Part shown: positions 672-20,182 of the stretch, piece by piece | Numbering within the stretch: the stretch's first letter is position 1 | Layout of the letters: each line of letters begins with the position of its first letter | DNA from: a virus | Reading direction: 5' to 3' (one strand) | IMG/VR virus record: IMGVR_UViG_3300030419_007734 | Span: 817 to 40,745 of that record | Length of the DNA stretch: 39,929 bases | Position numbers and translations under genes: made by a program | Notes under the pieces: model-generated | What the model saw: the letters and a program-made list of their open reading frames with translations, nothing else | Databases searched by the model: none | Told to the model about the DNA's origin: nothing

Positions 672-1373
672 GTGTATTTTCCTGAAGATTTAAATAGTTT
701 TGGTATTGTACTGAAGGGATCAAGTGTTAAAAGCATACCTGACTATGCTGACAAATTTGATCATTGTTTTATGGTTAACAATTTCGATAGAAATATTGAT
801 AACAAAAATTCTGAGTGGGAAACAGTATCGCCCCATTTAAAGGGTAAAAATATCGTGCATTTTGTCAACAGGCTAACAACTGCCCCTTTACTAAAAGAAC
901 ATTATGAAGAGTTGAACATAAAACATATTCAACTGTCGAAAATGAAGATGGATGATGCGCTAAGAATAGTTGTGCCTTATTACGAAGATGAATGTGGTTT
1001 AGAATGTCACTTCTTACCAGAGCAGGCATTAAAATATAACGATTATTTCGACGATAAATTTTATATGAAGCCTGGTGATTCAAATTATAGAGCTAAGCAC
1101 CCCAACACTGGGGTCCTGTCCGTGGTTTTTGCCGCTGAGTTGTTAAAACCAAAAGATTTGTGGGTTATTGGACTTGACTTTTATCAAAGTGATTACCTGT
1201 TTCGTAGGCCATGGCAAGCACCATTAGACAATCAACAACTCAAAATGAGAAACACAGATATGGTTGGCCACTTTGTCGACGTTGTTAAAAGAAATCCAGA
1301 TGTTAATTTTCACTTGGTTACAAAAGCAACAAACGTGCCCGAAATGGACAATTTGGAAATTTTTAAGGTTTAA
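672..1373 (+). CDS. Sialyltransferase-like glycosyltransferase (GT29/GT42-like)
   Basis: With the GTG start at 672 the protein is 233 aa. The N-terminus has a nucleotide-sugar binding pattern, FGIVLKGSS near residues 10-18, followed by CFMVNNFDRN, as in sialyltransferases where a Gly-Ser loop precedes a VNNF-type strand. Near residues 143-170 is PNTGVLSVVFAAELL followed by DLWVIGLDFY. This matches the second conserved block (TG...GxDFY) that I associate with the GT42 and GT29 sialyltransferase folds. Such enzymes move a CMP-linked nonulosonic acid onto an acceptor glycan. The next genes are NeuA-like and NeuB-like enzymes that would make exactly that donor, which strengthens the reading. There is no signal peptide or membrane segment, so it should act in the cytoplasm. 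A non-catalytic relative of the fold is the main alternative. Confidence 0.6.
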   Translation: MYFPEDLNSFGIVLKGSSVKSIPDYADKFDHCFMVNNFDRNIDNKNSEWETVSPHLKGKNIVHFVNRLTTAPLLKEHYEELNIKHIQLSKMKMDDALRIVVPYYEDECGLECHFLPEQALKYNDYFDDKFYMKPGDSNYRAKHPNTGVLSVVFAAELLKPKDLWVIGLDFYQSDYLFRRPWQAPLDNQQLKMRNTDMVGHFVDVVKRNPDVNFHLVTKATNVPEMDNLEIFKV

Positions 1374-1375
1374 AA

Positions 1376-2071
1376 ATGTTAGGAAAGAAAAAAGTCCTGT
1401 GTGTCACGCTAGCTCGTGGCGGTTCAAAAAGAGTACCAAAAAAGAACATAGCGCTTATTAATAAAAAGCCATTATTATGGTATACTTTTAAAGAAGCTGC
1501 GAAAAGCAAGTACATTGATAAATATGTGGTTTCAACCGAATGTCAGGAAACAATGAACGTCTGTGAAAAATATGGAGTGGAAATCTTTGAGCGCCCACAA
1601 GATCTAGCAAGAGATAACACAACCTCTGCCGCAGCTTTAATAAATGTCGCTGAGAAATACAAAGATTATGATATAGTTGTTGAACTCATGGCTACAAATC
1701 CGTTGAAAGAGGTCCAAGATATAGATTCTGTATTGGAAAAACTTGACAAAACTAAGGCAGATTCAGTCGTTTCAGTTGTGAGAATATGGGACCACCACCC
1801 ATCTAGAGTAAAAAGTATTAAAGATGATAGAATGGTAGACTTCTTTCCAGAAATTCCAGAGTCTAGACGACAAGACCTCAGACCAGAAGCGTATGTGAGA
1901 AATGGAAGCGTTTATGCGACAACGATGAATTCTTTGATGGAAAATAAAGTTCGTCTCGGACCTGATACCCGGCCATATATTATGCCAGAAAACCGCACAG
2001 TTAATATAGACGAGCCAATTGATTTGGAATTAGCAAGACTTCTAATAGAGCAAAAAGAATCACAGAGATGA
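1376..2071 (+). CDS. neuA: CMP-nonulosonic acid cytidylyltransferase (NeuA-like)
   Basis: This 231-aa protein has the diagnostic N-terminal P-loop-like motif of the CMP-NeuAc synthetase family, ARGGSKRVPKKNI at residues 13-25. It is followed by KPLLWYTFKEA, a strand VVSTE and the RPQDLARDNTTS block. It would use CTP to activate a sialic-type acid to its CMP donor with release of pyrophosphate. The length fits single-domain bacterial NeuA enzymes (about 220-230 aa), so there is no fused esterase domain. It starts two bases after the sialyltransferase-like gene and overlaps the next gene by four bases (ATGA), indicating one translationally coupled unit. The sugar could be sialic, legionaminic, pseudaminic or Kdo-like; the sequence alone does not say which. 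Confidence 0.85.
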   Translation: MLGKKKVLCVTLARGGSKRVPKKNIALINKKPLLWYTFKEAAKSKYIDKYVVSTECQETMNVCEKYGVEIFERPQDLARDNTTSAAALINVAEKYKDYDIVVELMATNPLKEVQDIDSVLEKLDKTKADSVVSVVRIWDHHPSRVKSIKDDRMVDFFPEIPESRRQDLRPEAYVRNGSVYATTMNSLMENKVRLGPDTRPYIMPENRTVNIDEPIDLELARLLIEQKESQR

Positions 2072-3009
2072 ACACAATATGTATAACTAAGTTAGATGAA
2101 CCTCTTCTTGCACGTCTGATCAGAACTTGTCCGGAGGTCACATATCTGCCAAATATAGAAAAGCAGCTTTTGCGCTTAAGGTTGCGTAAGTTAGAATATA
2201 AATGCCTTTTTACGAATCCCAACAATCAGAATTTTATGATCGATAAAGAACTGCTGGAGGGAACTCAAATAACAACAATATGTACAGCATCAACTGGCAC
2301 CAATCACATAGATATGGAATATTGTAAGCGACAAGGTATAAAAGTGTTGTCCATAACTAAAGACTTAAAATTGCTAGAGAAAATTAGCTCAACAGCTGAA
2401 CATGCCTTTACATTAATGTTGTCGCTGATAAGAAATGTACCAAGATCTTTTGATTCTGTTAAAGAGCACAAGTGGGATTGGCAGCCTTTTGTTGGCAGAC
2501 AAATAGATTCTTTAAATATTGGAGTCGTCGGCTTTGGAAGGCTTGGTAAAATGATGTCTAAGTATTGCCATGCCTTTGGCGCAAGAGTTTATGTTTATGA
2601 TCCTTATGTCGAGATAGACAGCGGCTATTTCAAATGTGAATCATTAGAACAACTTTTACAACTCTGTGATGTCGTTTCACTACATGTGCACGTTAACGAA
2701 GAAACAAAATATATGATTAATAAACAAGTCTTAAATAAAGCCAACCCCTTTTTTCTTGTTAACACATCTAGAGGGGAAATTGTAAAAGAAGAAGATGTCG
2801 TAGAATCTTTAGAGTCAGGGAAAGTGATCGGATATGCCACAGATGTTATAGAGTCTGAGTTTGATTCTATAGCAGAGAGCCCGTTGATACAAAAAATGGA
2901 TGATTTAAATGTTATAATAACACCTCATATTGGAGGAATGACCGCAGAGGCTAGAAATTTAGCCTACAGCGCAGCAATTGATAAATTAGCAGGAGAAATT
3001 AATGATTAA
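2068..3009 (+). CDS. D-isomer-specific 2-hydroxyacid dehydrogenase
   Basis: The 313-aa protein shows the standard family layout. The NAD-binding Rossmann motif GVVGFGRLGKMMS lies near residues 152-164, with an acidic residue at the end of the next strand (VYVYDPY). The catalytic Arg is in NTSRGEIV near 232-239 and the catalytic His in ITPHIGG near 284-290. The family (SerA, lactate and glycerate dehydrogenases) interconverts 2-keto and 2-hydroxy acids with NAD(P)H. The length matches single-domain members lacking the ACT domain of full SerA. It lies between neuA-like and neuB-like genes, overlapping both by a few bases, which suggests it works on a precursor or product of the nonulosonic acid route. 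That role is inferred; the substrate is unknown. Confidence 0.85.
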   Translation: MNTICITKLDEPLLARLIRTCPEVTYLPNIEKQLLRLRLRKLEYKCLFTNPNNQNFMIDKELLEGTQITTICTASTGTNHIDMEYCKRQGIKVLSITKDLKLLEKISSTAEHAFTLMLSLIRNVPRSFDSVKEHKWDWQPFVGRQIDSLNIGVVGFGRLGKMMSKYCHAFGARVYVYDPYVEIDSGYFKCESLEQLLQLCDVVSLHVHVNEETKYMINKQVLNKANPFFLVNTSRGEIVKEEDVVESLESGKVIGYATDVIESEFDSIAESPLIQKMDDLNVIITPHIGGMTAEARNLAYSAAIDKLAGEIND

Positions 3010-3802
3010 AATAATTGCAGAAATTGGCTGGAATCACATGGGTGATATGAATATTGCTCAAAAAATGATTGAAGCAGCCGCACAAAATGGAGCAGATTAT
3101 GCAAAATTCCAAACATGGTCTGTTGATAGACTAAAAGCAGGCGAGTGGGACCAAGACGGCCGCCGCCAAATTTATGAAAAAGCAGAATTAAACCGAGAAG
3201 ATCACATAACTTTGATGGAAATGTGTTCAGCTAACCAAATCGAGTTTTTATCCTCTGTTTTTAGTATTAAGGATGCTGAACTTTTGAGGTCTTTGGGAGT
3301 TAGAGAAGTAAAAATCCCAAGTTTTGAATGCCGAAACAGTGAGTTGATCTCATATTGCGATGAGAATTTTGACAAAATATATATGTCAACGGGAACATCA
3401 ACCTGGCCAGAAATAGAAAAATCTTCTATATTGGTTAACAACTCCTCTTTGACTTTGCTGCATTGTGTTTCATCGTACCCTGGAAACCCAGAACAGGCAA
3501 ATATAACAAAAATAAAACATTTAAAGGAGCTTTGCAGTAGTGTCGGCTATAGTGACCATATCGTGGGAGTGGAATCTGCCAAAGTTGCTCTAGCGTACGG
3601 GGTCGACGTCATTGAAAAGCACTTCACAATCGACCATAATCTGCCCGGTAGAGATAATAAATTCGCAATACTCCCAGAAGAGTTAAAAAATCTTAAAGAT
3701 TATGTTAAACTATATATGCAAATGCATAAATGGCATGGCTTAGATTATCTAGAATCTGAAAAAGCATCTAGAGAATCTTATACTGGAAGGTTTAATGGAT
3801 AA
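3002..3802 (+). CDS. neuB: Nonulosonic acid synthase, NeuB-like, short form without SAF domain
   Basis: The 266-aa protein opens with MIKIIAEIGWNHMGDMNIAQ, the start of the NeuB TIM barrel, followed by ADYAKFQTW. Later come KIPSFECRNSELI, MSTGTSTWPEIE, LLHCVSSYPGNPEQANI and VGYSDHIVGVESAKVA. The barrel ends with VDVIEKHFTIDHNLPGRDN, the conserved metal and phosphoenolpyruvate region. The family condenses PEP with an N-acyl-hexosamine (or its phosphate) to give a nine-carbon 2-keto acid. Typical members are about 340-350 aa because of a C-terminal antifreeze-like SAF domain; this one ends just after the barrel and lacks it. A strong ribosome binding site (AGGAGA at about 2990) precedes the ATG. 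It overlaps the genes on both sides. Confidence 0.85.
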   Translation: MIKIIAEIGWNHMGDMNIAQKMIEAAAQNGADYAKFQTWSVDRLKAGEWDQDGRRQIYEKAELNREDHITLMEMCSANQIEFLSSVFSIKDAELLRSLGVREVKIPSFECRNSELISYCDENFDKIYMSTGTSTWPEIEKSSILVNNSSLTLLHCVSSYPGNPEQANITKIKHLKELCSSVGYSDHIVGVESAKVALAYGVDVIEKHFTIDHNLPGRDNKFAILPEELKNLKDYVKLYMQMHKWHGLDYLESEKASRESYTGRFNG

Positions 3803-4436
3803 GGTTTCAATTATTATCAGGAACAGAAACGAGGAAAGATGGATTGGTCACGCAATTCAGTCTTGCTTGGATACGTTTGAGGATCCTGAAATTATTATTG
3901 TTGATAATAAATCCTCAGATGCTTCGCTACAAATTGTTAGCGAGTTCTGCTTTTCTGACATTAAGCTTTATGAAATAGACAGTTATACCCCTGGCAAGGC
4001 GTTGAATTTGGGGGTTTCTAAAGCCAAAAATGATACTGTATTAATATTGTCTGCACATGCCGAGATAGAAAAAATGATATCACTTGAAGAAATAAACAAA
4101 TATCTTAATGATAATGTTGCAGTTTTTGGCAAGCAAGTGCCAATATATCGTGGGAGAAAAATTTCCAAAAGGTATGTATGGACACATTTTGGTGATGAAT
4201 TTCAGTCAAACATGTGGTCTGATAACGAAAATAGGCATTTTTTACACAATGCTTTTTGTTTTTATAGAAAAGATACTTTATTAGAAAACCCATTTGATGA
4301 AAAATATCCTGCAAAAGAGGAGAGATATTGGGCCGCAGACATGGTAAAAAAGGGGAAGACATACATGTACGTACCAACAATAGAATGCAAACACCATTGG
4401 ACTCCTAATGGTGCAACCTGGAAGGGGATAGGATAA
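3795..4436 (+). CDS. Family-2 glycosyltransferase
   Basis: The 213-aa protein begins with the GT-A nucleotide-binding strand VSIIIRNRNEERWIGHAIQS, followed by IIIVDNKSSDAS, the classic GT2 first block. The next conserved region, GKALNLGVSKAKNDTVLILS, normally leads into a DxD metal site. Here the residues are SAHAEIE instead, a variant I also associate with some rhamnosyl-type GT2 enzymes. A later block, EKYPAKEERYWAADMVKKG, carries a plausible acidic catalytic-base region. No membrane helix is visible. It would transfer an activated sugar in the cytoplasm, probably one made by the neighbouring genes. Its start overlaps the NeuB-like gene by eight bases and its stop forms a TAATG junction with the epimerase. 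Confidence 0.8.
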   Translation: MDKVSIIIRNRNEERWIGHAIQSCLDTFEDPEIIIVDNKSSDASLQIVSEFCFSDIKLYEIDSYTPGKALNLGVSKAKNDTVLILSAHAEIEKMISLEEINKYLNDNVAVFGKQVPIYRGRKISKRYVWTHFGDEFQSNMWSDNENRHFLHNAFCFYRKDTLLENPFDEKYPAKEERYWAADMVKKGKTYMYVPTIECKHHWTPNGATWKGIG

Positions 4437-5323
4437 TGGCTAGGTGTTTAGTAACAGGACATAAAGGCTACATTGGAAGCCACCTTTATAGGGAACTAGA
4501 AAATCAAGGACACGAGGTCATGGGTGTTGATATAAAAGCGACGCCACGCGAAAATATAATTTATCGCTCCTCCGGGCTAAGAGATACCCTGGCCGTAACG
4601 CCAAAATTTGTAGACTTTGCGCCCGAGTATATTTTTCACTTGGCATGCAAGCCACGCGTGGCGTATAGTGTGGAATACCCGGTGCAGACAATGGAGAACA
4701 ATGTTTTAGCTGGCAGTGTTATATTGGATTTTGCTCGAAGAGTTGGAACTAGGCGTGTAATTTACTCTAGTTCCTCTTCGGTGGTCGGCAACGGGTCAGG
4801 CCCCGCGAGTCCATATGGCCTCCAAAAATTGGTTACAGAAATGGAGTGCAAATTATATGCAGATCTCTACGGTGTTGACACTGTTAGTTTGAGATATTTT
4901 AATGTATATTCTGAAGATCAAGAGGTCGACGGCCCTTATGCTACAGCCGTGGCAAATTGGATGCACTCTATCAGGCAAGGCAAAACCCCTTTTATTACCG
5001 GCACAGGAGAACAAAGAAGAGATATGTTGTATGTGCACGACGCTGTTGCAGCAAACATATTTTGTATGAATCACGATGATGATTTTAATGGAAATCATTA
5101 TGATGTCGGCACCGGAGAGAACATCTCACTAAATGAGATGAGAGATATAGTAAACAAGCACAACTCAGCTGTGGAATTCGAGTACCACCCAGAGCGCCCA
5201 GGAGATGTGCTGTACACAAAAGCGGATACACAACCCCTGGCCGACTTGGGTTGGAAAGTGGAAGTTAAAATAAATGAAGGACTTAATAGGTGCTTTGAAG
5301 GAGTAAAAAATGACCAGATATAA
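4436..5323 (+). CDS. NAD-dependent sugar epimerase/dehydratase (extended SDR)
   Basis: The 295-aa protein has the extended short-chain dehydrogenase signature. The NAD-binding motif CLVTGHKGYIGSHL is at residues 4-17, with an Asp at the end of strand 2 (VMGVDI). A Ser-rich catalytic strand (VIYSSSSSVVG) is followed by the YGLQK active-site Tyr/Lys pair. Then come the substrate-binding segments LRYFNVYSEDQ and TGTGEQRRDMLYVHDA, typical of GalE/WbpP/RmlB-like enzymes acting on nucleotide-linked sugars. The substrate might be UDP-glucose, UDP-GlcNAc or a uronic acid. A UDP-sugar 6-dehydrogenase follows with a 14-base overlap, so a UDP-linked substrate is a reasonable inference. Its TAATG start junction suggests translational coupling to the glycosyltransferase. 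Confidence 0.85.
   Translation: MARCLVTGHKGYIGSHLYRELENQGHEVMGVDIKATPRENIIYRSSGLRDTLAVTPKFVDFAPEYIFHLACKPRVAYSVEYPVQTMENNVLAGSVILDFARRVGTRRVIYSSSSSVVGNGSGPASPYGLQKLVTEMECKLYADLYGVDTVSLRYFNVYSEDQEVDGPYATAVANWMHSIRQGKTPFITGTGEQRRDMLYVHDAVAANIFCMNHDDDFNGNHYDVGTGENISLNEMRDIVNKHNSAVEFEYHPERPGDVLYTKADTQPLADLGWKVEVKINEGLNRCFEGVKNDQI
5297..5303 (+). promoter_or_regulatory. Strong ribosome binding site of the UDP-sugar dehydrogenase gene
   Basis: GAAGGAG at 5297-5303 sits six bases before ATG 5310, within the end of the epimerase gene. It supports the overlapping start rather than a later in-frame ATG. Confidence 0.6.
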
Positions 5324-6164
5324 CGTGGGTGTGATAGGTGCAGGGTTCGTTGGCCAGGCCGTTGCATGCGGGTTTAGCCCCGTAGCTAAAATTAGAATTT
5401 ATGATGTCGATCCTGACAAATGCACAGATACGCTTAAGGAAACCGTAAACAGATCTGATATACTTTTTGTTTCTGTCCCGACCCCTATGAATCCAGACGG
5501 GTCCATAAATTTAGACATTGTGCACAATGTATGTAAAAACATAGATGAGGCCAGCGAGCGCAAAGACAACGTGGTTGTTATTAAATCGACAGTTGTCCCA
5601 GGCACAACCAATCTTTTGAAGGAACAATACCCATCTTTAAACTTTGTATACAATCCAGAGTTCTTGACAGAAAAGAATCCTAGATTTGACTTTATTAACC
5701 AATCAAGGATTGTTTTAGGTGGTGATTATAGGTTGGTGCAGAGGTTGACTGGTCTCTATGTTAAAAGATTTAATCACTGCAACTTTATAAAAACAGACTG
5801 CACAACAGCAGAATTTATTAAATATTTAGGAAATACGTTTCTAGCATTAAAAGTTTCGTTTGCAAATGAAATGAGGCTTTTAGCAGAAGCAACAGGCGTT
5901 AATTGGCAAGAGGCACTAAGCGGCTTTGTAGCAGATGGTAGAGTGGCAGATTCGCATCTACAAGTGCCAGGTCCAGACGGGAAATTAGGTTTCGGGGGCA
6001 GCTGCTTCCCGAAAGATTTAAATGCTTTGATAGCTTTGGCTGACAAAGCTGGGGTTAATGTTAATACGCTTAAAGCCGCCTGGCAAACAAATTTAGAAGT
6101 TCGCCCTGAAAAGGATTGGGAAAAACTTGAAGGTCGAGCAGTAACAACAAAAAAGGAGTTTTAA
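5310..6164 (+). CDS. UDP-sugar 6-dehydrogenase, short form
   Basis: The 284-aa protein starts with the NAD-binding motif NVGVIGAGFVGQAVACGF. It contains FVSVPTPMNPDGSINLD, VVIKSTVVPGTTN and VYNPEFLTEKNP, all hallmarks of the UDP-glucose/GDP-mannose dehydrogenase family. The central-domain helix TTAEFIKYLGNTFLALKVSF carries the conserved Lys/Asn. The catalytic Cys lies in GFGGSCFPKDLNALI. The family oxidises the C6 hydroxyl of a UDP-hexose to a carboxylate in two NAD steps. Usual lengths are about 390-450 aa; the C-terminal UDP-binding domain is largely absent here, since the protein ends about 50 residues after the catalytic Cys. Either a compact phage version retains function through another partner, or it is a reduced enzyme. 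It closes the sugar cassette. Confidence 0.85.
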   Translation: MTRYNVGVIGAGFVGQAVACGFSPVAKIRIYDVDPDKCTDTLKETVNRSDILFVSVPTPMNPDGSINLDIVHNVCKNIDEASERKDNVVVIKSTVVPGTTNLLKEQYPSLNFVYNPEFLTEKNPRFDFINQSRIVLGGDYRLVQRLTGLYVKRFNHCNFIKTDCTTAEFIKYLGNTFLALKVSFANEMRLLAEATGVNWQEALSGFVADGRVADSHLQVPGPDGKLGFGGSCFPKDLNALIALADKAGVNVNTLKAAWQTNLEVRPEKDWEKLEGRAVTTKKEF

Positions 6165-6165
6165 T

Positions 6166-6417
6166 ATGAGTGATACTAATCTAAATGAACTACACCTTTC
6201 GGATCAAGCTTTAGGAGCCGTGATGATGGCACTACAAAAGAGTCTACTGGAGCAGAGCGACATTGTACCTGTTTTAAAAAGTTTTAAACTTGTAGACGAT
6301 GGTGCTGGCAATTTAGTTGTGACAAACCCCCCATTAGTGAAGGTTTCTCATGATGATGTGGACACTTTGTCAACCGCTGCTGAAGAGCCTATTATGCCCC
6401 GTGAAGAAGATTTTTAA
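6166..6417 (+). CDS. Small protein of unknown function (83 aa)
   Basis: An AAGGAG ribosome binding site just upstream of ATG 6166 and tight packing between two genes make this a credible gene. The N-terminal half reads as one amphipathic helix (LSDQALGAVMMALQKSLLEQS), followed by a short strand-rich part (FKLVDDGAGNLVVTNPP) and an acidic tail. No family is recognised. It starts two bases after the UDP-sugar dehydrogenase stop and ends in a TAATG junction with the zinc-ribbon gene. It may therefore be either the last gene of the sugar unit or the first of the small-gene block. Confidence 0.7.
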   Translation: MSDTNLNELHLSDQALGAVMMALQKSLLEQSDIVPVLKSFKLVDDGAGNLVVTNPPLVKVSHDDVDTLSTAAEEPIMPREEDF

Positions 6418-6686
6418 TGCCTAGGTATTCTTACGTCTGCGAAAAGTGTAAACAAACGTTTTCTATTACCCACTCTATGAGTGAAAAAATAGAAACCTAC
6501 GAGCACGACGAATGCCCAGATGGTGGAAAACTAAGGAAGGTGCCATCAGTTTTTTGCAAGCAAATTGTAAAAGAAAAAAAAACTGGACAAATCGTTAAAA
6601 AATATATCGAAGACGCAAAACGGGAAGTTAAAGAAGAAAAACAGGCTTTAAAGAAAAAGGAATACAAAGAGGACAACCCTCGATGA
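6417..6686 (+). CDS. FmdB-like zinc-ribbon protein
   Basis: The 89-aa protein begins MPRYSYVCEKCKQTFSITHS, closely matching the start of FmdB-type zinc ribbons (P-x-Y-x-Y-x-C-x-x-C). Cys8 and Cys11 form the first knuckle. The expected second CxxC is degenerate: Cys33 in DECPDGG is alone, with His30 nearby and Cys47 further on. It could therefore bind zinc with a mixed Cys/His set. The C-terminal third is highly charged (KKKEYKEDN). FmdB-like proteins are common in phages of this kind but their role is not established; nucleic acid or protein binding is a guess. TAATG and ATGA junctions tie it to both neighbours. Confidence 0.7.
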   Translation: MPRYSYVCEKCKQTFSITHSMSEKIETYEHDECPDGGKLRKVPSVFCKQIVKEKKTGQIVKKYIEDAKREVKEEKQALKKKEYKEDNPR

Positions 6687-6997
6687 CTTTAATTATATTT
6701 TTTATACTATCATTGTTTATAAACATTCTGCTGGTTTGGTATCTTAGAAAGGTATTGTACAAATTGTTGTTTGTTTCAGATAATATTGATGATTTACTAG
6801 CTCGCATGGAAGAATTTTCAAATCACGTTGAAAGAATTTATGGTATGGAAACTTATTATGGAGACGAGGTTTTGCAAGGTCTAGTCGAGCATTCAAAGGA
6901 AATAGTTGAAGCTATACAAGAATATGAAGGAGTTTATACCGTTACTAGGTATCTAGAGCAAAAGGAATACTATGGCGAGGAAGAGGAAGAAGAATAA
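6683..6997 (+). CDS. Small single-pass membrane protein
   Basis: The 104-aa protein starts with a clear hydrophobic segment, LIIFFILSLFINILLVWYL at about residues 3-21. This is followed by a basic residue and a mostly helical, acidic domain (NIDDLLARMEEFSNHVERIYG) and a tail of six Glu. The layout suggests an N-terminal membrane anchor with a cytoplasmic coiled-coil-like domain, but it has no recognised family. Its ATGA overlap with the zinc-ribbon gene and 26-base overlap with the sigma-like gene place it firmly in the same transcript. Confidence 0.75.
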   Translation: MTLIIFFILSLFINILLVWYLRKVLYKLLFVSDNIDDLLARMEEFSNHVERIYGMETYYGDEVLQGLVEHSKEIVEAIQEYEGVYTVTRYLEQKEYYGEEEEEE

Positions 6998-7661
6998 CAG
7001 ATATTATTTTACTAAAGATCATGAGGAAGCTGTCGTAAAATACGCAAAAAGCAACAGCAGAGAGGAAAAATCAGAACTTTACGTTGTAATGATACAACCA
7101 GCTTTCAGTGAGATGGTGGATAAAATTGTATATACTTATAAATTTTCCACTCTACCAAACATTGATATTTTAAGAGATGAGTGCAAAATATGGCTTACAA
7201 CTATCTTAGATAAGTACGATCCCGACAAGGGGTCAAAAGCTTTTTCTTATTTCAGTGTCATCACAAAAAACTGGTTTATCCACAAAGTTAAAAAAGATTC
7301 TCAAAAGAAACGGAGAGAGATTCAGTTCCAAGATTTATCAAAAACTCTAGAACAAAATTATCTGTCGGTTGATAACAACTATGATCACATGAGAGAACTT
7401 CAGGAGTTTTGGGAGAAGCTGTGGGATGAAATACAGTCATGGGATACAGGTGACTTGAAACCAAACGAAAAGAAAGTCTTAGAGGCGATTAAGATTTTAT
7501 TGGAGAATTCTGATAAAATAGAGATTTTTAATAAAAAAGCCGTATATTTATATCTCCGAGAGTTAACCGGCTTAAACACGAAACAGGTTGTTAACAGTCT
7601 AAATAAAATGAGAACCCGCTATAGACAGTTTAAAGACGATTGGAATGAAGGAAAAATATAA
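6972..7661 (+). CDS. Sigma-factor-like protein, possible T4 gp55-type late sigma
   Basis: The 229-aa protein has a region resembling sigma region 2. DECKIWLTTILDKYDPDKGS is followed by KAFSYFSVITKNWFIHKVKK, the pattern (hydrophobic helix, then KYDP..G..FSYFS.I..N) seen in T4 gp55 and cyanophage late sigma factors. The C-terminal half contains another helical domain (KAVYLYLRELTGLNTKQVVN) with a helix-turn-helix-like spacing. Such proteins direct host RNA polymerase to late promoters together with a sliding clamp. Placement immediately before the structural genes fits. An AAGGA ribosome binding site near 6960-6964 supports the start. The family match is by motif only. Confidence 0.65.
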   Translation: MARKRKKNNRYYFTKDHEEAVVKYAKSNSREEKSELYVVMIQPAFSEMVDKIVYTYKFSTLPNIDILRDECKIWLTTILDKYDPDKGSKAFSYFSVITKNWFIHKVKKDSQKKRREIQFQDLSKTLEQNYLSVDNNYDHMRELQEFWEKLWDEIQSWDTGDLKPNEKKVLEAIKILLENSDKIEIFNKKAVYLYLRELTGLNTKQVVNSLNKMRTRYRQFKDDWNEGKI

Positions 7662-10747: not shown

Positions 10748-13700
10748 ATGGCAACAAATTGGACAACAAAAAAACCTTTTAAACCATTTGAGGAAACGAA
10801 AAACGGCACTGTATATAAATGTATAGTTGTATTAAGAGAATATAACCCCGCATCTGATTTAGAGCCAGGCCCCGCGTCCCCGAACGTCTTCAATAACCGA
10901 GATTATATGGTTACAAATCAGGATAGTGTTTTTAAAGAAGGTCTAACTAAAATTCTGGATGTATATGGTAAAGAATATTCACTTGAAGAATTTGATAAAT
11001 TTTGGCAATCAGAAAATATTGACGGGTCTCCAACCAGCACCGGTGTTCTTTATACCGGCCCCGACGAAACTCCGGCCGGCCGCGTTGGCAAAGAAGAAAT
11101 AGCCAGGTATGGCACGGGAATCCAGGCTGAAACTCGCGCACTGCTAGGTTCATTTGGTATCGCCCACGCAAAGTTTAAAGCTGGCACCAGCGGTTATGAC
11201 ATCCAGGGCCCCTTTTACCCACCTCGCCCAGGTATCAATTATGTTTTGTATAAGGTTATGGTTAATAATGATATTTTTAACACATACCAAACAAAAGCAT
11301 ATGCAAGTAGAACTACTAAAATTTTAAGCAGGGGAAATAATTTCTATAAAGAAATTGAATTTGCTAATTTTGAAGAATTATCAACACACATAGCCGAAGT
11401 TTCTGCAGTTTTAAAAGAATACGAAACAGAACATCAAAAGCTTCAAACCAGAAACAAGGACCCCAAAATGTTTTTTGGCCCTATTGAATTAAACGTACCT
11501 AGGTTTCCATACTCAGCTACTGGAGTCCGACCACAACTTTATGGGAAATTGGACTTAATTGAAGAAGGCGAAAAATTAGATGAATTAAACTTTAGACTAA
11601 AAGACTTCTTCAGAAATAATAATTTTGATTTAACAAGTGATAAAATAGCGGTTGGGTTTTATGCTACACCAAAAAACTTAGACCCATCCACCTCCTCGGA
11701 CCAAACTGAAACTGCGGACGCGGAGGTAGCGCCGTCCACTGAGACTGCCCAAGAGAGCACCGGAGACACCGAGACTTCAGAGACAGAAATAACTTTACCA
11801 GAAATAACAACTAGTCAAACTGATCCCACTTCATATACAAACAAATACCGTGTCTCATCTGGGGATAGTTTATGGAAGATTACAGCTTTTTATCTGGGCG
11901 CCGGCCCTCGTTGGAAACAATTAAGAGAATTAAATAGCTCAAATTCAAAATTCAGAAAGAGAGGGTGGAAATCAGATAAACAAATAAAAGGTCTGGAAGA
12001 ACAACTAGCAAACACGGAAGAAGTAATACTTCAGTCAGAAACATATGATCTTGAAGGAGAGCCACCAACTCAATCATTAACGTACATCACAAACCCAAAA
12101 TACGAAGCGATATACGAGAAACTCAGAAAAGCAAAGTCCCCATTAATTCACCCTGGAGACATTCTTGAGATTCCAAGTGTTTGGTTAGACGAAATTGCTT
12201 CGAAAAATTCGTGGCCTTCTAGACAAAAGGACGAACTTACCTATATTACTTTCGACCCGGCCCTGATAAATCCACCGCCGCCAACCGGCCCAACTCCAAT
12301 TTCAGATGATGGCCCATCGCACGTAATGCAAGCGCCCACCGAAGACCCCGGAGCCCCAGGAACACTGATTGATCCATGGGAGATGTATGATTTGGACAGT
12401 CTTGCAGCCACTGGTATCGGGGTCAGTAATATTGCTTACATTAAGAGATATACCAAGAAGTATGAAAAAGCTGTGGAGGCTTATAAAAGCTCAAAAACGA
12501 ATTATGATATTTCTCCTCCAAATGTTGATAAAACAACCCTGGAAACAAGACTTGCAGCATCCAAAGCCGTATTAGAAGAAAATATAATAAACGAGAGGAT
12601 CTATGTTTGGGCAGATTTTCTCGGACTGGTATACTCAGATGAGTATCATGAAAAATACAGAACAACTCGCTTTTTATCTAACTTAGAAGTTCTTATAGCA
12701 GAACCAGGCGTCAAAGGGGCCCTGACTAGGTTTTGCAGTCCTAGTAAAAAGCCACCCAAAAAAGCAAAGAAAATAACCGCGTTTGTTAAAAAATATATTT
12801 ATGATCCCCCAAGTTTAAGGGATGTTGAGCTAAGTAGCGATGACGAAGCATTGTACGCTGCATATCTAGCGAAAAGAACCCCGCCCTTTCATACCCCCCA
12901 GACTGAAGAACAAAAAAACGCTTGGAATACGATTATAAAAAGCCCTGCAATGAAATTCGCTGTCTCCAATCGCACACAAAAATTCTCCAATAAAGTTGGG
13001 GATGCAGTCTTTGCCGCCTTACCAAGATCCGTCAATAGAATCGATGATTTAGACGATCTGCATCGATACGTTTTATCCAGGCTAAGTATACCACAAATGG
13101 CTGAGGAACTCATGAGGTGTCTAGGTTTAACAATGTCTCTAGACGATGTAATTGAGGCTTTGTGTGATGGGTTTTTAAAGAAGATCGGCGCCGACCCAGA
13201 TAAAATAGACGAGTTTTTTGTTAAGTTGAAGTCCGGAGAATTTAACCCAACAGCCGGCGGAGTCGAATTTCTCGATACTGCTGAAATGGCACAGGATTTA
13301 CAAAGATATCTTTCTGAGGCAGTCGCCGCCGGCGTCGACGATCCTTTTTATAGCAGTGTTATAAAACAAAATATCAACAACGCGCAAGGCAAAAGACTCA
13401 TTTGTGAACTAGTGCTAGGAGCAATGTTTGCACTGGCGGATATGCTGGCTAACCTAGAGACAAACCCTAACCCCTATGACCAGGCTGACGATTCAATCCC
13501 GCCCGTGCCAAAGTGCTCTACACGATTTTCCTTCCCTAGAATACCAGCGTTTGGTAGCTTGTTGGATCCGATATTAAAACAGATAGAACAGAAAATATAT
13601 GATTACCTGAACAAGGTTATCACCAATGTTGCAAAAGAAATAATAGAGGCAATAATCGAAGCCTGCGCAGAACCAGAGCCAGAATTTGGGCCTCCTCTTC

Positions 13701-16700
13701 CGCCTGTTACCGATGAGCAAGGCCTTAAACAAGCTTTTGCTCCCCTCACGGGCGCGGACCCAAGAGACTTCTTATCTCACTTGCTTTCTATTTTAACAGC
13801 TAATGAGCTTTGTCAATTAGTCAACGGATCCGCAGGGAAGCCATTGTTGTTACAGGTCAGAAAGTTTATGAAGCTTAATTATCCTGAATACTTCAATCAG
13901 TTTTCCACAAATTATAAAATATTTTCATTTTTTAAAAATTTGCAAGGCATTTTAGATCTCAGCGCATGCGCCCTGCCCGCACCTGAACCTAAATTCAGTT
14001 TGGATAATTTATGTAAAGACGGCATGACTCCCAGAGAAGAAGCTTTGAGAAGAACCCTGCTAGCTAAAGGCTTGACGGAAGAAGAGGTACAAGAACAGCT
14101 AGCTATAGACAAAGAAATCAAAAAAGACATTGTTAGTGATCTTGTTAAAGCAATGTACCCAGAAGACCAGGCAAACAACGCCGATCAAGCTTTGGATATT
14201 AATAGTGTTATAGCACAATCCAAAGCAATGGAAAAAGGAAACGATCTTACTATTGGTGCCACTTTTAAGTCGCTGCAGAACTCAATGTATAGCGAGGTTG
14301 GCGCATTCATACCCACTATTTTTAGTGAGATTAATAAGCTGGAAAAAGAAGGGAACTACACGTTTACTAATCTTCCTATTTTTGATAGTTTAATGCAATT
14401 TGCATATGCAGACTGGGCCAATAAGGTTACCGGGTTTTCTTCATCAGATCCAAACGTGTTTACACTTGAGGTGCCACAAATAAAGTATCAACCTGGCCAG
14501 ACAGTAGAGGAGCAAATAGCAGCCTTAGGCCCTGCCGTCACTCCAACCACCACAGCCGGCCTAAAAGATATTCCCGGGACTTATAGTGTTGTATTGGAAG
14601 ACACAAAAAGAATTGTATATGACATGGCGTCATACAACAATCCGCTAAATGATAGCCCCAAATATGACGATATGTTTTTCTTCAGTGTAAAGGGTAAGTA
14701 TGGAAACAATTTATTTAGCTCTGAGAGAAGCGCCGACGGTTTAGAAATAAAAGACGAAATTGTAAAACAAAAATTGTCAAAATACCCAGTTGATGATGAC
14801 AGCCTACCAAGGCAAATTGATGTTTTTAACCAATTTCTAGCCAACAAAGTCAGGCAAGTTTATCAAAGCGTTAAGTCAGGCCTCTCGGCCGAAGGGCAAG
14901 AATCGATTGACAACTCCTTAGACAACCTAGGTGATTGGTACGGAATCAATAACATAAAAAGAGACCTAGTGCCAAATTATTCCACAAAATGGTCGTTGGG
15001 AGAATATATTTACGACACAGCCTTTATTTCTATTATTGACAGAATCACAAGAATTATTACAACTTCCGAATATCTCAGCTTAGAAAACAACTCCCCTTTA
15101 CAGAATCTTGATTTATTGGCGCATAGACTTGGTGATCTAGAGGATGTTAAAAAAGAAACCAAACAAAGAGTTAATTCTCTCATGGGTTCTCATGATTTTT
15201 CAACGGGAGAACCACCAACCTTCTTGGGAAATTCTCTTTTTGAAGGCGCAATAAAAACTATAATAAAGGCTGAATTAATTCAAAATCTGTTAAGAACTAC
15301 TTTCGTGTTCTCGAAATTTAAAATATCAGACGCATTCTCAGACGCTATCTTACAAGAGTATATGATTTCATCGATTAAGACAATGAAGGAGGGTGAGGTT
15401 TATGACCTGTATCGAAAATATATTCTAGAACAAGAGAGAGAGCTTAGGAACAAGTTAACTAGTCAAGGCCCCCGCTCGAAACCACCAGGCCCAGTTTTGT
15501 CAGATCAGCAAATAGAAAGCGAAGTAAAAAAGCAAATATATGCCGATAAAGCTACGAATGCTGATGAGTATATCATGTCTTTTGTACAAACAACGTCTGA
15601 GGCTTTAAAGGATAAGATTATTCGTGTTTTTGGGAACATGCAGAAAGCCGTTGATGAGCGAGTTGATTTAGCAGAGAAAGGTTTAACTCAAAATGTTAAT
15701 AAATTGGCACTACAGGGCGAAACTTCTAAAATTATGGGACATGTGCACACTTATGAAATAGACGAGAATGGTAATGGAATCGCTTCTGCAGCCTACCATC
15801 CCGATTTTCCCGAGATTTTTCATGAACATACAATTCAAAATTTCATTGTACAGGATGCTGAAAATGAATACGCCCCAGGCCACAATCATCAACTTCAGCT
15901 GAAAGATTATCCAAGCCCAGTTATCAATACTATTACAGCCTTAGATTCGGACCTTAACAGCCAAAACTGGGCGAATTCAACCACATCAAATGATATAATC
16001 GGTGGCAGTTCTTCCACATGTATGCAAGAGTGTTTTTGGGACGAACGAAAACATTTAGCTGAAGTCCCCGCTGGAACCATTTTGCCCCCCGGTACAAATT
16101 GGGATGCATCTGAGGCCATTTTTGCTACCTTAGAAGAACCAGTAATTAAGGAAATTGGCTGGGCCACCACCGGTGAGTATGAGTATAAGAAAATTGGGTT
16201 CGGCATACCGCCGGTGACCATGGTACCCGTGGATGCAGACGGCGCCCGCGAAGAGTTACACGATGTTGTAAAAGCCGGCCGTAAATATTTTGAGGATCAT
16301 TTCGAGGGCTTTTATAATCCTGTTGCCCACACAGTGAAAGATTATGATTCTGGCATCTGGAGCGACCTTCTTTTTGGCAGCATAGGCGACCAGCCAGAGA
16401 CGAGTTGGAACCAACAAAATCCTTTTTCTCCATATTACGGAGTCGAATACTACTGGGAAGCATCTTCAGGCCCGTTTGTGTCAGGCATCGACAAGACCGG
16501 CGCCTCTGGTTATAAATTAATTGCCAAAAAAACGCACAGTTATCAAACTAGGCCACCCCGCACCACATCAGAATGGTCTTCATACTCTAGTGGGCAATTT
16601 ATCCAAGATGGAGTTCACAGCACACTAATAGGTGGCGGTACTGCAGAGGGCGGCAATTTCTTTTTTGGACAAAATGTTGCTCCTACTGAAAAACTTATAT

Positions 16701-19174
16701 TATATGATGAGGGTCGAGAATTCCCGTTAATACGCTTAAGTGTACCTACGCGAGGATCAAGCGATATAAATATTCATCATGTTACCAAGATCAACCTTCA
16801 GGTGAGTGGTGAAAATCTGCACCCAAACGCAAGAGCTATGTTGGTTGGGCAAAATTTTGGATTTTCTTATGACGTCACTGTGAATTCCGCCCCAGATGCA
16901 GACCAAGACACTGGTCAAGGTGAGATTTCATACGCTAACACTTTGGATCTCACAATCCCGGTCGTATGCTTTGCTGGTAAACATTCGCATGATGAATATG
17001 GCGTTGAAAACAATGATGAATGGGGCGATAACGGCGAACATAATGCCACAAATTCGGAAAGGCTAAAGGGCGGCCATGGCCATATTGATGAGATTAGTGG
17101 AAAAACAGTTGTTGACGACGTTTATGTTCTTCAAATCTTAAACCCAGATTCAGGTAAACTCGCAGCTGCACCTGTTTATTTTCATACTTTTAGAGCATAT
17201 GGAAGAAATTGGAAGACAAATTATAACTCTGCTGAGAATAAAAGTTGGCGCGATCACTACACCAAACCCGGCCCAGAAGGTACAGAATTTTTTGTTGATT
17301 ATCTGATGCCTTCCTGGAACCAAAAGGGGATGGAATGGCCACAAGGCAAGCCAGAAACTAAAATGCCGTTTAGAATAGGTCCAAAACCAGATGAAGGTTT
17401 AAATCAGTTTTTTGCTTTGACAACTTATGGTGACGACGATCAAGCTTGGGATATTTTTGATGTTGCCGATGTGACCGGTATAAAACAGGATAATGTGCAG
17501 ACTAGTGAGCAAGGATATGTTGAAAGAAAATCAGTTGTCTGCGCCCCTCGGCTGACAAGAAAAGAGTCTGTTGAAAAACTTCGTAATGGCGGTTTTATTT
17601 TAGAAAAATATATTAAAATTAAGTTTAAAGCCTACCCTGAAATCGCTCTCAAAGATAAAGACCTGGCCAACAGAATATATGCCGGCACCGCTGCAGAAGG
17701 ATTTATTAATGATGAAGCTTCCCAACTAGGACAACCAGCACAAGAAAGCATATATGACAAATTAACCGTTGATTTAGACCCAGAAAAAATGGACAAAATA
17801 GCTGCCTTGATTTCACAAAACATAACTGGTTTTGTAGGGCAAGGTGAGATAGAAGCAAATGAAAAAATTGAAGCAGATATTTTTCGGTTTGCTAAATTCG
17901 ATCAAGTTCCAGGTATGGTGGCCGCCGCAACAAATCCGCAAATCTTGTCATACAACGCTTTCTCAAGACTACAACAAGCCTTGTTGGGCCTCCCGGATGA
18001 GTATGACCCGGCCACGGGCGCCCCTGAGGGCTTAAGTGAATTTTCTACCGAGGTTTCCCCTTATTTAGATCAATTTCACTTTACTGAAATTGTAGAAGAT
18101 TTTAGTTATGGATTGAGGGTTTGTTATGTTGCTCCTTTTGTACCCTTTGAAAACGCGTCAACAATAATGTTAAACATGTTCTCACCAAACCCGGTTGGCA
18201 ACGAATATCAGGGACTCACGCCTATCAACTTCGATTCACCATCGGGAAGATTTGTAGAACACCTAACAAAAGCAAAAGCACAAAATAAATTGTTTCACTT
18301 AGTTGAATACGATGGTTACATACCAGGCATGTATAAGCTTCCACCCGGGTCAATAATAGAGGGCACCGCCGACATAGATTTTGCAGAAACCAGCTACAGC
18401 GAAGGGGTAGTTGATTCAGATATTAATAATATTAAAATAAAAGGCCCCGCCTCTCAAGTTGCAGAATCACTTTTGGGCAAATTTGAAGAAGAGGAGGTTA
18501 TTCACACAAAAGTTATGAAGAACGTTTTTATCTTCCCTATTGCAAAAACAGAAATTTCATATACAGATAATCGATTTCCATCCTCAACAGTAAAGACATT
18601 TCAAGATCTTCTTTCTGCTTACCCGACAGAGAATCCAACAGAATTAATCCCCCTTGGAAAAGAAATTTACGATAATCTTTATGTAAAACTAAAAACAAGT
18701 TCAGATTTTAAATTAGCATTTGATTATTTACTGCCGGCAAAGCGAGCCCTCGCGATGACAACAATCTACAACATGCTAGCCTTTGATTCCGTATTCCCAG
18801 ATCCTTGCAAATTTCAAAATTTATTTGCTCTTACCAAGAATACCGCATTTGCTTTAGCGGAGATGACAATTAAAGACCCTACAACAACATCCGATATGAA
18901 GCCACCCTACAATAGTGACACTGACATAGTGAACCTGTTACGTCAGGCCAACGGGTTTACGAACTCCTGCCCAATGCCAGCATTCAATCCAGACATTCTT
19001 AATTCAATACTTGGGTCCGAAAGCGCGAATATAATAGGCAACCTCTTCGTAGGGCAGCAAGACATTGTGAACACGCTCCAACAACCTCCGGTGGATGGAC
19101 TCGAATTGCCGACTTTGATTTCGCCTTCACCCTCGCCTTCACCCTCGCCTTCACCCTCGCCAGAAGAACAGTAA
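10748..19174 (+). CDS. Giant virion structural protein with LysM domain (2808 aa)
   Basis: An AAGGA site lies just before ATG 10748. Residues about 320-360 are an acidic Thr/Glu/Ser linker. Residues about 366-470 form a LysM-like domain: YRVSSGDSLWKITAFYLG at its start and LIHPGDILEIPSVW at its end, with a roughly 60-residue insertion between. LysM binds peptidoglycan or chitin-type glycans. The long central part is mixed helix, without long coiled coil. Two His-rich clusters, GHVHTYEIDENG..PGHNHQ (about 1665-1711) and KHSHDEYG..GGHGHIDE (about 2078-2113), suggest metal sites. The C-terminus is seven Ser-Pro pairs then EEQ. Position between the hub-like genes and gp25/gp6 points to a baseplate or tail-tip component. 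A tape measure is less likely given the missing coiled coils and membrane segments. Confidence 0.65.
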   Translation: MATNWTTKKPFKPFEETKNGTVYKCIVVLREYNPASDLEPGPASPNVFNNRDYMVTNQDSVFKEGLTKILDVYGKEYSLEEFDKFWQSENIDGSPTSTGVLYTGPDETPAGRVGKEEIARYGTGIQAETRALLGSFGIAHAKFKAGTSGYDIQGPFYPPRPGINYVLYKVMVNNDIFNTYQTKAYASRTTKILSRGNNFYKEIEFANFEELSTHIAEVSAVLKEYETEHQKLQTRNKDPKMFFGPIELNVPRFPYSATGVRPQLYGKLDLIEEGEKLDELNFRLKDFFRNNNFDLTSDKIAVGFYATPKNLDPSTSSDQTETADAEVAPSTETAQESTGDTETSETEITLPEITTSQTDPTSYTNKYRVSSGDSLWKITAFYLGAGPRWKQLRELNSSNSKFRKRGWKSDKQIKGLEEQLANTEEVILQSETYDLEGEPPTQSLTYITNPKYEAIYEKLRKAKSPLIHPGDILEIPSVWLDEIASKNSWPSRQKDELTYITFDPALINPPPPTGPTPISDDGPSHVMQAPTEDPGAPGTLIDPWEMYDLDSLAATGIGVSNIAYIKRYTKKYEKAVEAYKSSKTNYDISPPNVDKTTLETRLAASKAVLEENIINERIYVWADFLGLVYSDEYHEKYRTTRFLSNLEVLIAEPGVKGALTRFCSPSKKPPKKAKKITAFVKKYIYDPPSLRDVELSSDDEALYAAYLAKRTPPFHTPQTEEQKNAWNTIIKSPAMKFAVSNRTQKFSNKVGDAVFAALPRSVNRIDDLDDLHRYVLSRLSIPQMAEELMRCLGLTMSLDDVIEALCDGFLKKIGADPDKIDEFFVKLKSGEFNPTAGGVEFLDTAEMAQDLQRYLSEAVAAGVDDPFYSSVIKQNINNAQGKRLICELVLGAMFALADMLANLETNPNPYDQADDSIPPVPKCSTRFSFPRIPAFGSLLDPILKQIEQKIYDYLNKVITNVAKEIIEAIIEACAEPEPEFGPPLPPVTDEQGLKQAFAPLTGADPRDFLSHLLSILTANELCQLVNGSAGKPLLLQVRKFMKLNYPEYFNQFSTNYKIFSFFKNLQGILDLSACALPAPEPKFSLDNLCKDGMTPREEALRRTLLAKGLTEEEVQEQLAIDKEIKKDIVSDLVKAMYPEDQANNADQALDINSVIAQSKAMEKGNDLTIGATFKSLQNSMYSEVGAFIPTIFSEINKLEKEGNYTFTNLPIFDSLMQFAYADWANKVTGFSSSDPNVFTLEVPQIKYQPGQTVEEQIAALGPAVTPTTTAGLKDIPGTYSVVLEDTKRIVYDMASYNNPLNDSPKYDDMFFFSVKGKYGNNLFSSERSADGLEIKDEIVKQKLSKYPVDDDSLPRQIDVFNQFLANKVRQVYQSVKSGLSAEGQESIDNSLDNLGDWYGINNIKRDLVPNYSTKWSLGEYIYDTAFISIIDRITRIITTSEYLSLENNSPLQNLDLLAHRLGDLEDVKKETKQRVNSLMGSHDFSTGEPPTFLGNSLFEGAIKTIIKAELIQNLLRTTFVFSKFKISDAFSDAILQEYMISSIKTMKEGEVYDLYRKYILEQERELRNKLTSQGPRSKPPGPVLSDQQIESEVKKQIYADKATNADEYIMSFVQTTSEALKDKIIRVFGNMQKAVDERVDLAEKGLTQNVNKLALQGETSKIMGHVHTYEIDENGNGIASAAYHPDFPEIFHEHTIQNFIVQDAENEYAPGHNHQLQLKDYPSPVINTITALDSDLNSQNWANSTTSNDIIGGSSSTCMQECFWDERKHLAEVPAGTILPPGTNWDASEAIFATLEEPVIKEIGWATTGEYEYKKIGFGIPPVTMVPVDADGAREELHDVVKAGRKYFEDHFEGFYNPVAHTVKDYDSGIWSDLLFGSIGDQPETSWNQQNPFSPYYGVEYYWEASSGPFVSGIDKTGASGYKLIAKKTHSYQTRPPRTTSEWSSYSSGQFIQDGVHSTLIGGGTAEGGNFFFGQNVAPTEKLILYDEGREFPLIRLSVPTRGSSDINIHHVTKINLQVSGENLHPNARAMLVGQNFGFSYDVTVNSAPDADQDTGQGEISYANTLDLTIPVVCFAGKHSHDEYGVENNDEWGDNGEHNATNSERLKGGHGHIDEISGKTVVDDVYVLQILNPDSGKLAAAPVYFHTFRAYGRNWKTNYNSAENKSWRDHYTKPGPEGTEFFVDYLMPSWNQKGMEWPQGKPETKMPFRIGPKPDEGLNQFFALTTYGDDDQAWDIFDVADVTGIKQDNVQTSEQGYVERKSVVCAPRLTRKESVEKLRNGGFILEKYIKIKFKAYPEIALKDKDLANRIYAGTAAEGFINDEASQLGQPAQESIYDKLTVDLDPEKMDKIAALISQNITGFVGQGEIEANEKIEADIFRFAKFDQVPGMVAAATNPQILSYNAFSRLQQALLGLPDEYDPATGAPEGLSEFSTEVSPYLDQFHFTEIVEDFSYGLRVCYVAPFVPFENASTIMLNMFSPNPVGNEYQGLTPINFDSPSGRFVEHLTKAKAQNKLFHLVEYDGYIPGMYKLPPGSIIEGTADIDFAETSYSEGVVDSDINNIKIKGPASQVAESLLGKFEEEEVIHTKVMKNVFIFPIAKTEISYTDNRFPSSTVKTFQDLLSAYPTENPTELIPLGKEIYDNLYVKLKTSSDFKLAFDYLLPAKRALAMTTIYNMLAFDSVFPDPCKFQNLFALTKNTAFALAEMTIKDPTTTSDMKPPYNSDTDIVNLLRQANGFTNSCPMPAFNPDILNSILGSESANIIGNLFVGQQDIVNTLQQPPVDGLELPTLISPSPSPSPSPSPSPEEQ
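19121..19161 (+). repeat. 12-bp tandem repeat encoding (Ser-Pro)n
   Basis: The 12-mer TCGCCTTCACCC repeats about 3.4 times at the end of the 2808-aa gene, giving the Ser-Pro tail that ends in EEQ. A related, longer tract lies at 39305-39382 in a different gene. Confidence 0.9.
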
Positions 19175-19770: not shown

Positions 19771-20157
19771 ATGTCAGGAATATCAGTTAAACTACCGCTT
19801 AACCCGAGTGATGACGATGGGCACTACGGATTAAATAAAACATTTATGGACGTTGTAAAGCAGAATTTCAAAAATCTGATTCTCACAATTCCCGGCGAAA
19901 GGGTGATGGACCCGTCTTTCGGATGCGGGCTAGCCCAACTTTTATTCGAACAAGACACTCAGGACGTAAGAGATCAGATAAGTTCTCGGATATTCAACCA
20001 GGTTAAAATCTATATGCCTCACATCATTATAGAAGAAATTTCTTTTTCTGATATAGAAAAAAATATAGAGATTGGTTCAAATACGCTGCTGGTGGTTGTC
20101 AAGTATAGGGTAACTCCTTTTAATGAATCGGATATATTAGATATAAAAATAGGTTAA
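19771..20157 (+). CDS. 25: Baseplate wedge protein, gp25-like
   Basis: The 128-aa protein contains ILTIPGERVMDPSFGCGLAQ near residues 37-56, the signature of the gp25-like (W protein) family, and ends with VVVKYRVTPFNESDIL, a typical final strand pair. T4 gp25 sits in the baseplate wedge and starts tail sheath polymerisation. Homologues do the same in contractile phages, R-type pyocins and type VI secretion. The length is normal for the family. An AAGGA site precedes the ATG, and the gp6-like gene follows 25 bases later, the usual order in T4-like and marine myophages. Confidence 0.9.
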   Translation: MSGISVKLPLNPSDDDGHYGLNKTFMDVVKQNFKNLILTIPGERVMDPSFGCGLAQLLFEQDTQDVRDQISSRIFNQVKIYMPHIIIEEISFSDIEKNIEIGSNTLLVVVKYRVTPFNESDILDIKIG

Positions 20158-20182
20158 AACTATTTAGAAAGAGGACAAAACA

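Follow-up and report, generated by a model that had tools for sequence, protein, structure and literature searches.

Marine T4-like phages of the cyanophage type carry sugar islands with glycosyltransferases, epimerases and UDP-glucose dehydrogenase. Here we describe a phage cassette predicted to make, activate and transfer a sialic-acid-like sugar, at positions 672–6164 of a 39.9-kb window (the whole stretch of DNA analysed) out of the 40.7-kb IMG/VR viral contig IMGVR_UViG_3300030419_007734. Like the cyanophage-type islands, the window combines glycosyltransferases, an epimerase and a UDP-glucose dehydrogenase in a marine myovirus. We know of no such island described with a NeuB synthase, a cytidine monophosphate (CMP)-sugar synthetase and a GT42-like protein as a set; a divergent NeuB is present, however, in the Kyanoviridae record AG-345-L05, beside a gene resembling the first one of the cassette, seen by profile and not by tblastn. 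The bacterial NeuB/NeuA(PseF) pathways with GT42 or GT29 enzymes likewise have synthase, CMP-synthetase and transferase-like protein together, with core sites kept. The phage set differs from them in a NeuB without SAF domain, in having no precursor or export genes, and in the constant presence of a hydroxyacid dehydrogenase (HDH) and a GT2 protein of an SxH type. Surface-glycan loci of Pelagibacterales, Prochlorococcus, SAR86 and marine Bacteroidota share HDH, CMP-synthetase, SAF-less NeuB and GT2 with the phage sets, but many of them encode polytopic exporter- or flippase-like proteins and the phage sets encode none. In Acinetobacter, the prophage capsule modifiers EpaA/EpaB and Atr29/Atr30 act on nonulosonic acids (PMC12053666, PMC6586298). 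These enzymes alter host-made residues, whereas the window phage encodes the synthase, the activating enzyme and a transferase candidate. What is new relative to known phage-borne glycan modification would be the phage's own activated ulosonic acid.

Seven open reading frames (ORFs) on the + strand fill the cassette, with junctions of −14 to +2 nt (overlap or gap), as expected from a sequence-only reading that had proposed a coupled seven-gene unit. Its family labels held for six genes, which score over Pfam cut-offs; the one weak identification is the first gene (672–1373), which matched no sialyltransferase model. Our best explanation, with middling confidence, is a glycan cassette that works in the cytosol and that phages maintain and can replace. 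NeuB would make a sialic-acid-like (ulosonic) acid from phosphoenolpyruvate and a host-supplied aldose, a step well supported by family and intact site. HDH would carry out a redox step on precursor or product, and the cytidylyltransferase would yield the CMP-activated sugar, again well supported. With moderate support, the GT42/GT29-like protein of 672–1373 would transfer that sugar to a glycan, whose acceptor part GT2 and upstream glycosyltransferases may build.

The synthase (3002–3802, + strand, 266 aa) scores 199 bits with Pfam NeuB (cut-off 22.1) and 206 bits with the NCBIfam equivalog NeuB_NnaB, under the 400-bit cut-off. Equivalents of E25, K53, Q55, K129, Y186, S213, H215, E234, H236 and D247 of meningococcal NeuB (1xuu) are identical in 77 of 77 relatives; 12 of 14 site positions are identical in 76–77 of the 77, and N184 is replaced by Ser. 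By Pfam score and conserved active site the protein is a member of the NeuB family. It is not a Neu5Ac (N-acetylneuraminic acid) synthase proper as judged by the SAF domain: PF08666 was not found in the window contig at E ≤ 1, 16 of 18 records of related phages lack it too, and the protein ends after the barrel. A C-terminal tail, E...GR[F/W], is conserved instead, with E253 in 77 of 77 relatives, G262 in 74 and R263 in 76. In meningococcal NeuB, Arg314 of the SAF domain reads the N-acyl group; we infer only that R263 might replace it. The best PDB match, 6ncs (N-acetylneuraminic acid synthetase, 290 aa), also lacks a full SAF domain judging by its length, but is bacterial.

The cytidylyltransferase (1376–2071, + strand) matches CTP_transf_3 with 90 bits (cut-off 22.6, E 2.5e-25) and resembles CMP-NeuAc synthetases in the PDB. 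The NCBIfam PseF model also matches (E 1.9e-38), yet at 132 bits it stays under its 206-bit equivalog cut-off. The equivalents of R-x-G-S-K, R165, N175 and D211 are retained and, with the domain, mark a predicted CMP-nonulosonate synthetase (NeuA/PseF). Asn stands at D209, the second Mg-ligand Asp, and Met at Gln104 of Neisseria NeuA, substitutions that are usual among phage-type enzymes. By these two positions it would not be a CMP-Neu5Ac synthetase proper, and the changes therefore hint that Neu5Ac is not the substrate. The sequence-only reading proposed that the phage may make its own CMP-nonulosonic acid and would have yielded to catalytic loss in NeuA or NeuB. Both enzymes have largely intact active sites, which upholds synthesis and activation; a nine-carbon product fares less well, and SAF loss together with the altered cytidylyltransferase pocket argues against plain Neu5Ac.

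The NAD-type D-2-hydroxyacid dehydrogenase (2068–3009, + strand; 2-Hacid_dh_C, 148 bits) retains its catalytic R235, E264 and H287. Its linkage is to the SAF-less synthase: HDH occurs at 21 of 34 bacterial loci with the close SAF-less NeuB type and at 0 of 41 with other types (Fisher 4e-10, relatedness uncorrected). A place in phosphonate or Kdo8N pathways was considered and dropped as partner genes are lacking. The small GT2 (3795–4436, + strand, 213 aa; Glycos_transf_2, 69 bits) has S86-x-H88 in place of the DxD common in GT2 enzymes; the motif does not vary across 65 sequences, and the enzyme is possibly metal-independent. Across 64 loci, in phages and bacteria, this SxH type lies mostly directly 3′ of the SAF-less NeuB. 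The NeuB alignment retrieved 57 viral loci (near-copies counted), of which 56 have an HDH of either type, 56 a CMP-synthetase and 45 a GT2, and all four genes are present in 45. With its NeuB and CMP-synthetase, both largely intact in their active sites, and the GT42/GT29-like protein beside them, the window offers a plausible set from donor to transferase within a tail module, and sets of this kind recur in many phages under purifying selection. One locus (L004) encodes a NeuB–cytidylyltransferase fusion, as read from its sequence. Two others (L098, 6063–8008; L014, 3972–6001) have an enolase-superfamily dehydratase and a second HDH type overlapping NeuB, variants that may reveal the dehydrogenase's role. 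In L014, from a Candidatus Pelagibacter metagenome-assembled genome (contig NZIO01000013), small phage-like ORFs adjoin the cassette; the contig may be of phage origin and have been assigned to the bacterial genome by binning.

The first gene (ST; 672–1373, + strand) encodes a 233-aa, GT42/GT29-like putative sialyl(ulosonyl)transferase. Its likely start is the GTG at 672, where relatives begin MYFP...; they do not support the ATG at 576. We found no sialyltransferase match in Pfam, PHROG or NCBIfam searches. A family profile from 15 homologues had GT42 sialyltransferases, CstII included, as its best PDB matches (E = 0.03). In this weak match D169, Y171, Y175 and H200 align with the catalytic D154, Y156, Y162 and H188 of CstII, the His being the base. 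Against phage GT29 proteins only the motif-S region of the profile aligns (P 1.2e-4). NeuB is encoded in the records of 19 out of 20 viral ST loci that were found independently of it, and the exception is a 20-kb fragment. Linkage and motifs together suggest CMP-ulosonate as the ST donor. PF06002 was also sought in 395 genomes of one phylum, but none exceeded the cut-off and hence no set was available for profile comparison. GT29 exceeds its Pfam cut-off in 9 of 49 related phage records, and in locus L092 a GT29 gene adjoins ST. GT29 (animal-type) family proteins occur in marine phages at L092 5625–6401, L007 10379–11011 and L136 5629–6363; the L007/L136 family profile matches the alpha-2,3-sialyltransferase 2wml in the PDB (E 2e-16). 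The protein at L194 7253–7885 resembles these phage GT29 proteins by eye.

To locate assembly, we counted polytopic proteins, defined by a simple hydropathy threshold as proteins of at least 150 aa with at least four membrane-like segments. There were none among 1046 proteins in 61 phage loci, whereas bacterial loci sharing this NeuB had 20 among 364 (Fisher 1e-12 by protein, 9e-9 by locus), and PF02397 lipid-carrier starters were not found in 50 records. With no membrane polymerase, flippase or starter, acceptor assembly is therefore probably cytosolic. A cytosolic acceptor, for instance virion proteins, or inner-face lipid A-core fits the phage route. Export of the Gtr or O-antigen kind is therefore disfavored, barring borrowed host exporters; the GtrA flippase and membrane Gtr of a seroconversion cassette have no counterpart among the 61 phage loci. 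As target we tentatively favor proteins of the virion encoded in the adjoining tail module, an assignment suggested by the neighboring tail genes and falling just short of an even chance. The cassette had been placed directly before tail genes. A tail module does lie downstream, but small ORFs and a gp55-like sigma match intervene: in 3′ order come three small ORFs, the weak gp55-like sigma match, two giant proteins, and gp25- and gp6-like baseplate wedges.

Several observations weigh against the phage-maintained glycan cassette as we explain it. ST stays under the Pfam cut-offs for CST-I (PF06002, GT42) and GT29 (PF00777), and its profile E value of 0.03 is weak. The nine lineages closest to the window retain the His aligned with the CstII base, but more distant homologues have Tyr or Phe there. 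A structure model from 15 sequences reached a pLDDT (predicted local distance difference test) of 85.7, and Foldseek gave ST8SiaIII a probability of 0.99 at a template modeling score of 0.45, ranked below unrelated barrels; because wrong folds rank first, we claim no sialyltransferase fold match. (This model replaced one from three sequences, pLDDT 61, whose fold search returned meaningless barrel matches.) The profile search that the sequence-only reading had set as its own test was thus divided in outcome, with Pfam CST-I and GT29 unreached and the profile and fold evidence no more than suggestive. PF02350, the NeuC-type epimerase, was not found in the window contig or its 185- and 172-kb relatives, and the acceptor aldose would therefore come from the host or from other genes; it is present in 5 of 19 records. 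As to the target, virion proteins bear no direct mark as acceptors and tail-gene proximity alone is weak evidence. The proposed Ser/Thr-rich giant adhesins are so only in part: the giant tail proteins have 13.8% and 18.1% Ser plus Thr, not strikingly rich, and strikingly Ser/Thr-rich acceptors were dropped on these values.

GT42 enzymes sialylate lipo-oligosaccharide, which speaks for a host target. As the main alternative target, cytosolic transferases might add the ulosonic acid to host lipid A-core, in the manner of bacterial lipo-oligosaccharide sialyltransferases, and mask the receptor against superinfection or against re-adsorption of progeny to debris, a real possibility that we rate below even. 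Bacterial loci of the surface-polysaccharide kind (L012 and others) hold the same gene set, and Acinetobacter prophages have been shown to encode enzymes acting on the nonulosonic acids of the capsule (PMC12053666, PMC6586298). The missing flippase, polymerase and starter count against O-antigen or Gtr routes to the envelope, whereas a core-lipopolysaccharide route needs none of them; the coupling of the cassette to late and tail genes also argues against an envelope target.

Alternatively, NeuB, HDH and CMP-synthetase could make another CMP compound, such as an octulosonate from an unsubstituted aldose, with 672–1373 a different glycosyltransferase. The absent SAF domain, the change of Gln104 and of one Mg-ligand Asp in phage-type enzymes, and the unexplained HDH linkage are all compatible with this. 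So are the genes of one phage island (L006, 804–2410), which include a HAD-like protein, a SIS isomerase and a ribulose-phosphate 3-epimerase and form a possible pentose-phosphate precursor route. From these genes and the sets with dehydratase and second HDH, an eight-carbon acid remains conceivable. The rest of the NeuB active site is intact, however, and unrelated phages repeatedly have genes of GT29/GT42 type next to NeuB, so we regard this alternative as unlikely.

A tree of 77 NeuBs shows 4 switches between phage and cell labels versus 25 when labels are shuffled, and the window NeuB groups with phages only. Phage NeuBs thus form mainly a lineage of their own, which answers the call for a phylogeny against bacterial homologues. 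Between loci L092 and L094, nonsynonymous divergence (pN) is 0.06–0.13 and synonymous divergence (pS) 0.73–0.85, with synonymous sites near saturation, and therefore every gene is under purifying selection. Tree and selection together indicate phage-maintained genes and no recent capture. Recently captured host genes riding as cargo with no phage function are very improbable: phage glycan islands are variable and the distantly related Immutovirus has no cassette upstream of its sigma gene, but strong purifying selection, the phage-centered NeuB lineage and replacement by a ~30%-identical same-function set with no decay all speak against it.

That replacement is seen against locus L005. The flanks (ST, the epimerase, the UDP-sugar dehydrogenase, the ORF at 6166 and the sigma-like gene) are 72–85% identical to those of the window, whereas NeuB is 30%, HDH 33% and CMP-synthetase 45% identical. 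Compared with L092, the flanks are 52–63% identical and NeuB, CMP-synthetase and HDH 65, 65 and 58%. Alike flanks with a divergent middle therefore indicate that the middle block was exchanged for a same-function set, which would fit serotype-like variation. The broader proposition, widespread phage-specific cytosolic ulosonic-acid cassettes with a SAF-less NeuB/HDH pathway, self-made sugar on virions and a donor block swapped in serotype-like fashion, strikes us as somewhat unlikely in its entirety.

Marine metagenomic phages carry dozens of these sets and reference phage records almost none: tblastn against 50,697 of the latter picked up NeuB relatives in three (one labelled Moritella and probably bacterial), a CMP-synthetase in one and no ST. 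In the open-access literature, a search for phage-encoded sialic-acid synthesis yielded only enzymes that modify nonulosonic acids, and no paper was found on a marine ulosonic-acid pathway of SAR11, Prochlorococcus and phages. SAF-less NeuB, HDH and SxH-type GT2 point to such a shared pathway. If active, the cassette would place a surface sugar with negative charge on the phage or its host. This would provide a mechanism, open to test, by which superinfection is excluded, receptors change or virions become decorated; a phage might in this way coat or disguise itself with sugar of its own making.

The two remaining cassette genes, on the + strand, belong to the conserved flank: the SDR nucleotide-sugar epimerase (4436–5323; Pfam Epimerase, 160 bits), outside the swapped block, and a short UDP-sugar 6-dehydrogenase (5310–6164) with a GFGGSCFPKD motif and matches to UDPG_MGDP_dh_N and the central domain (85 and 84 bits). 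The C-terminal UDP-binding domain of the latter is unmatched, a trait common to related phages. The swapped block is bordered on its left by the 3′ portion of a glycan-island gene lying upstream (10–669, + strand), which is 56% identical to L005 6877–7995 and had no match in Pfam, PHROG or NCBIfam. Downstream on the + strand, three small ORFs (6166–6997) are kept at the same site in relatives, and the gp55-like late sigma factor (6972–7661; a weak match, phrog_234, E 2.5e-4) forms the conserved right border of the locus, its relatives being 59–85% identical. Repeats at the cassette borders were short pairs at chance level only and we therefore propose no recombination site; a sharp step was not seen in the GC profile. 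The T4-type late promoter TATAAATA, tried as an operon mark, showed no clear enrichment and does not mark the operon. The baseplate wedge genes (19771–21970, + strand) comprise a gp25-like (19771–20157) and a gp6-like gene (20183–21970), and the window wedge is 31% identical over 98% to its Immutovirus counterpart. By baseplate and sigma, the closest isolates, at ~30% identity, are Immutovirus (Flavobacterium) and Microcystis phage Mel-JY01. A 2808-aa giant protein (10748–19174) has an endolysin-like segment at aa 344–398 (phrog_380, E 8.8e-8). Another of 3735 aa (23516–34723) has no Pfam match, and its N-terminal part looks LamG/lectin-like by eye.

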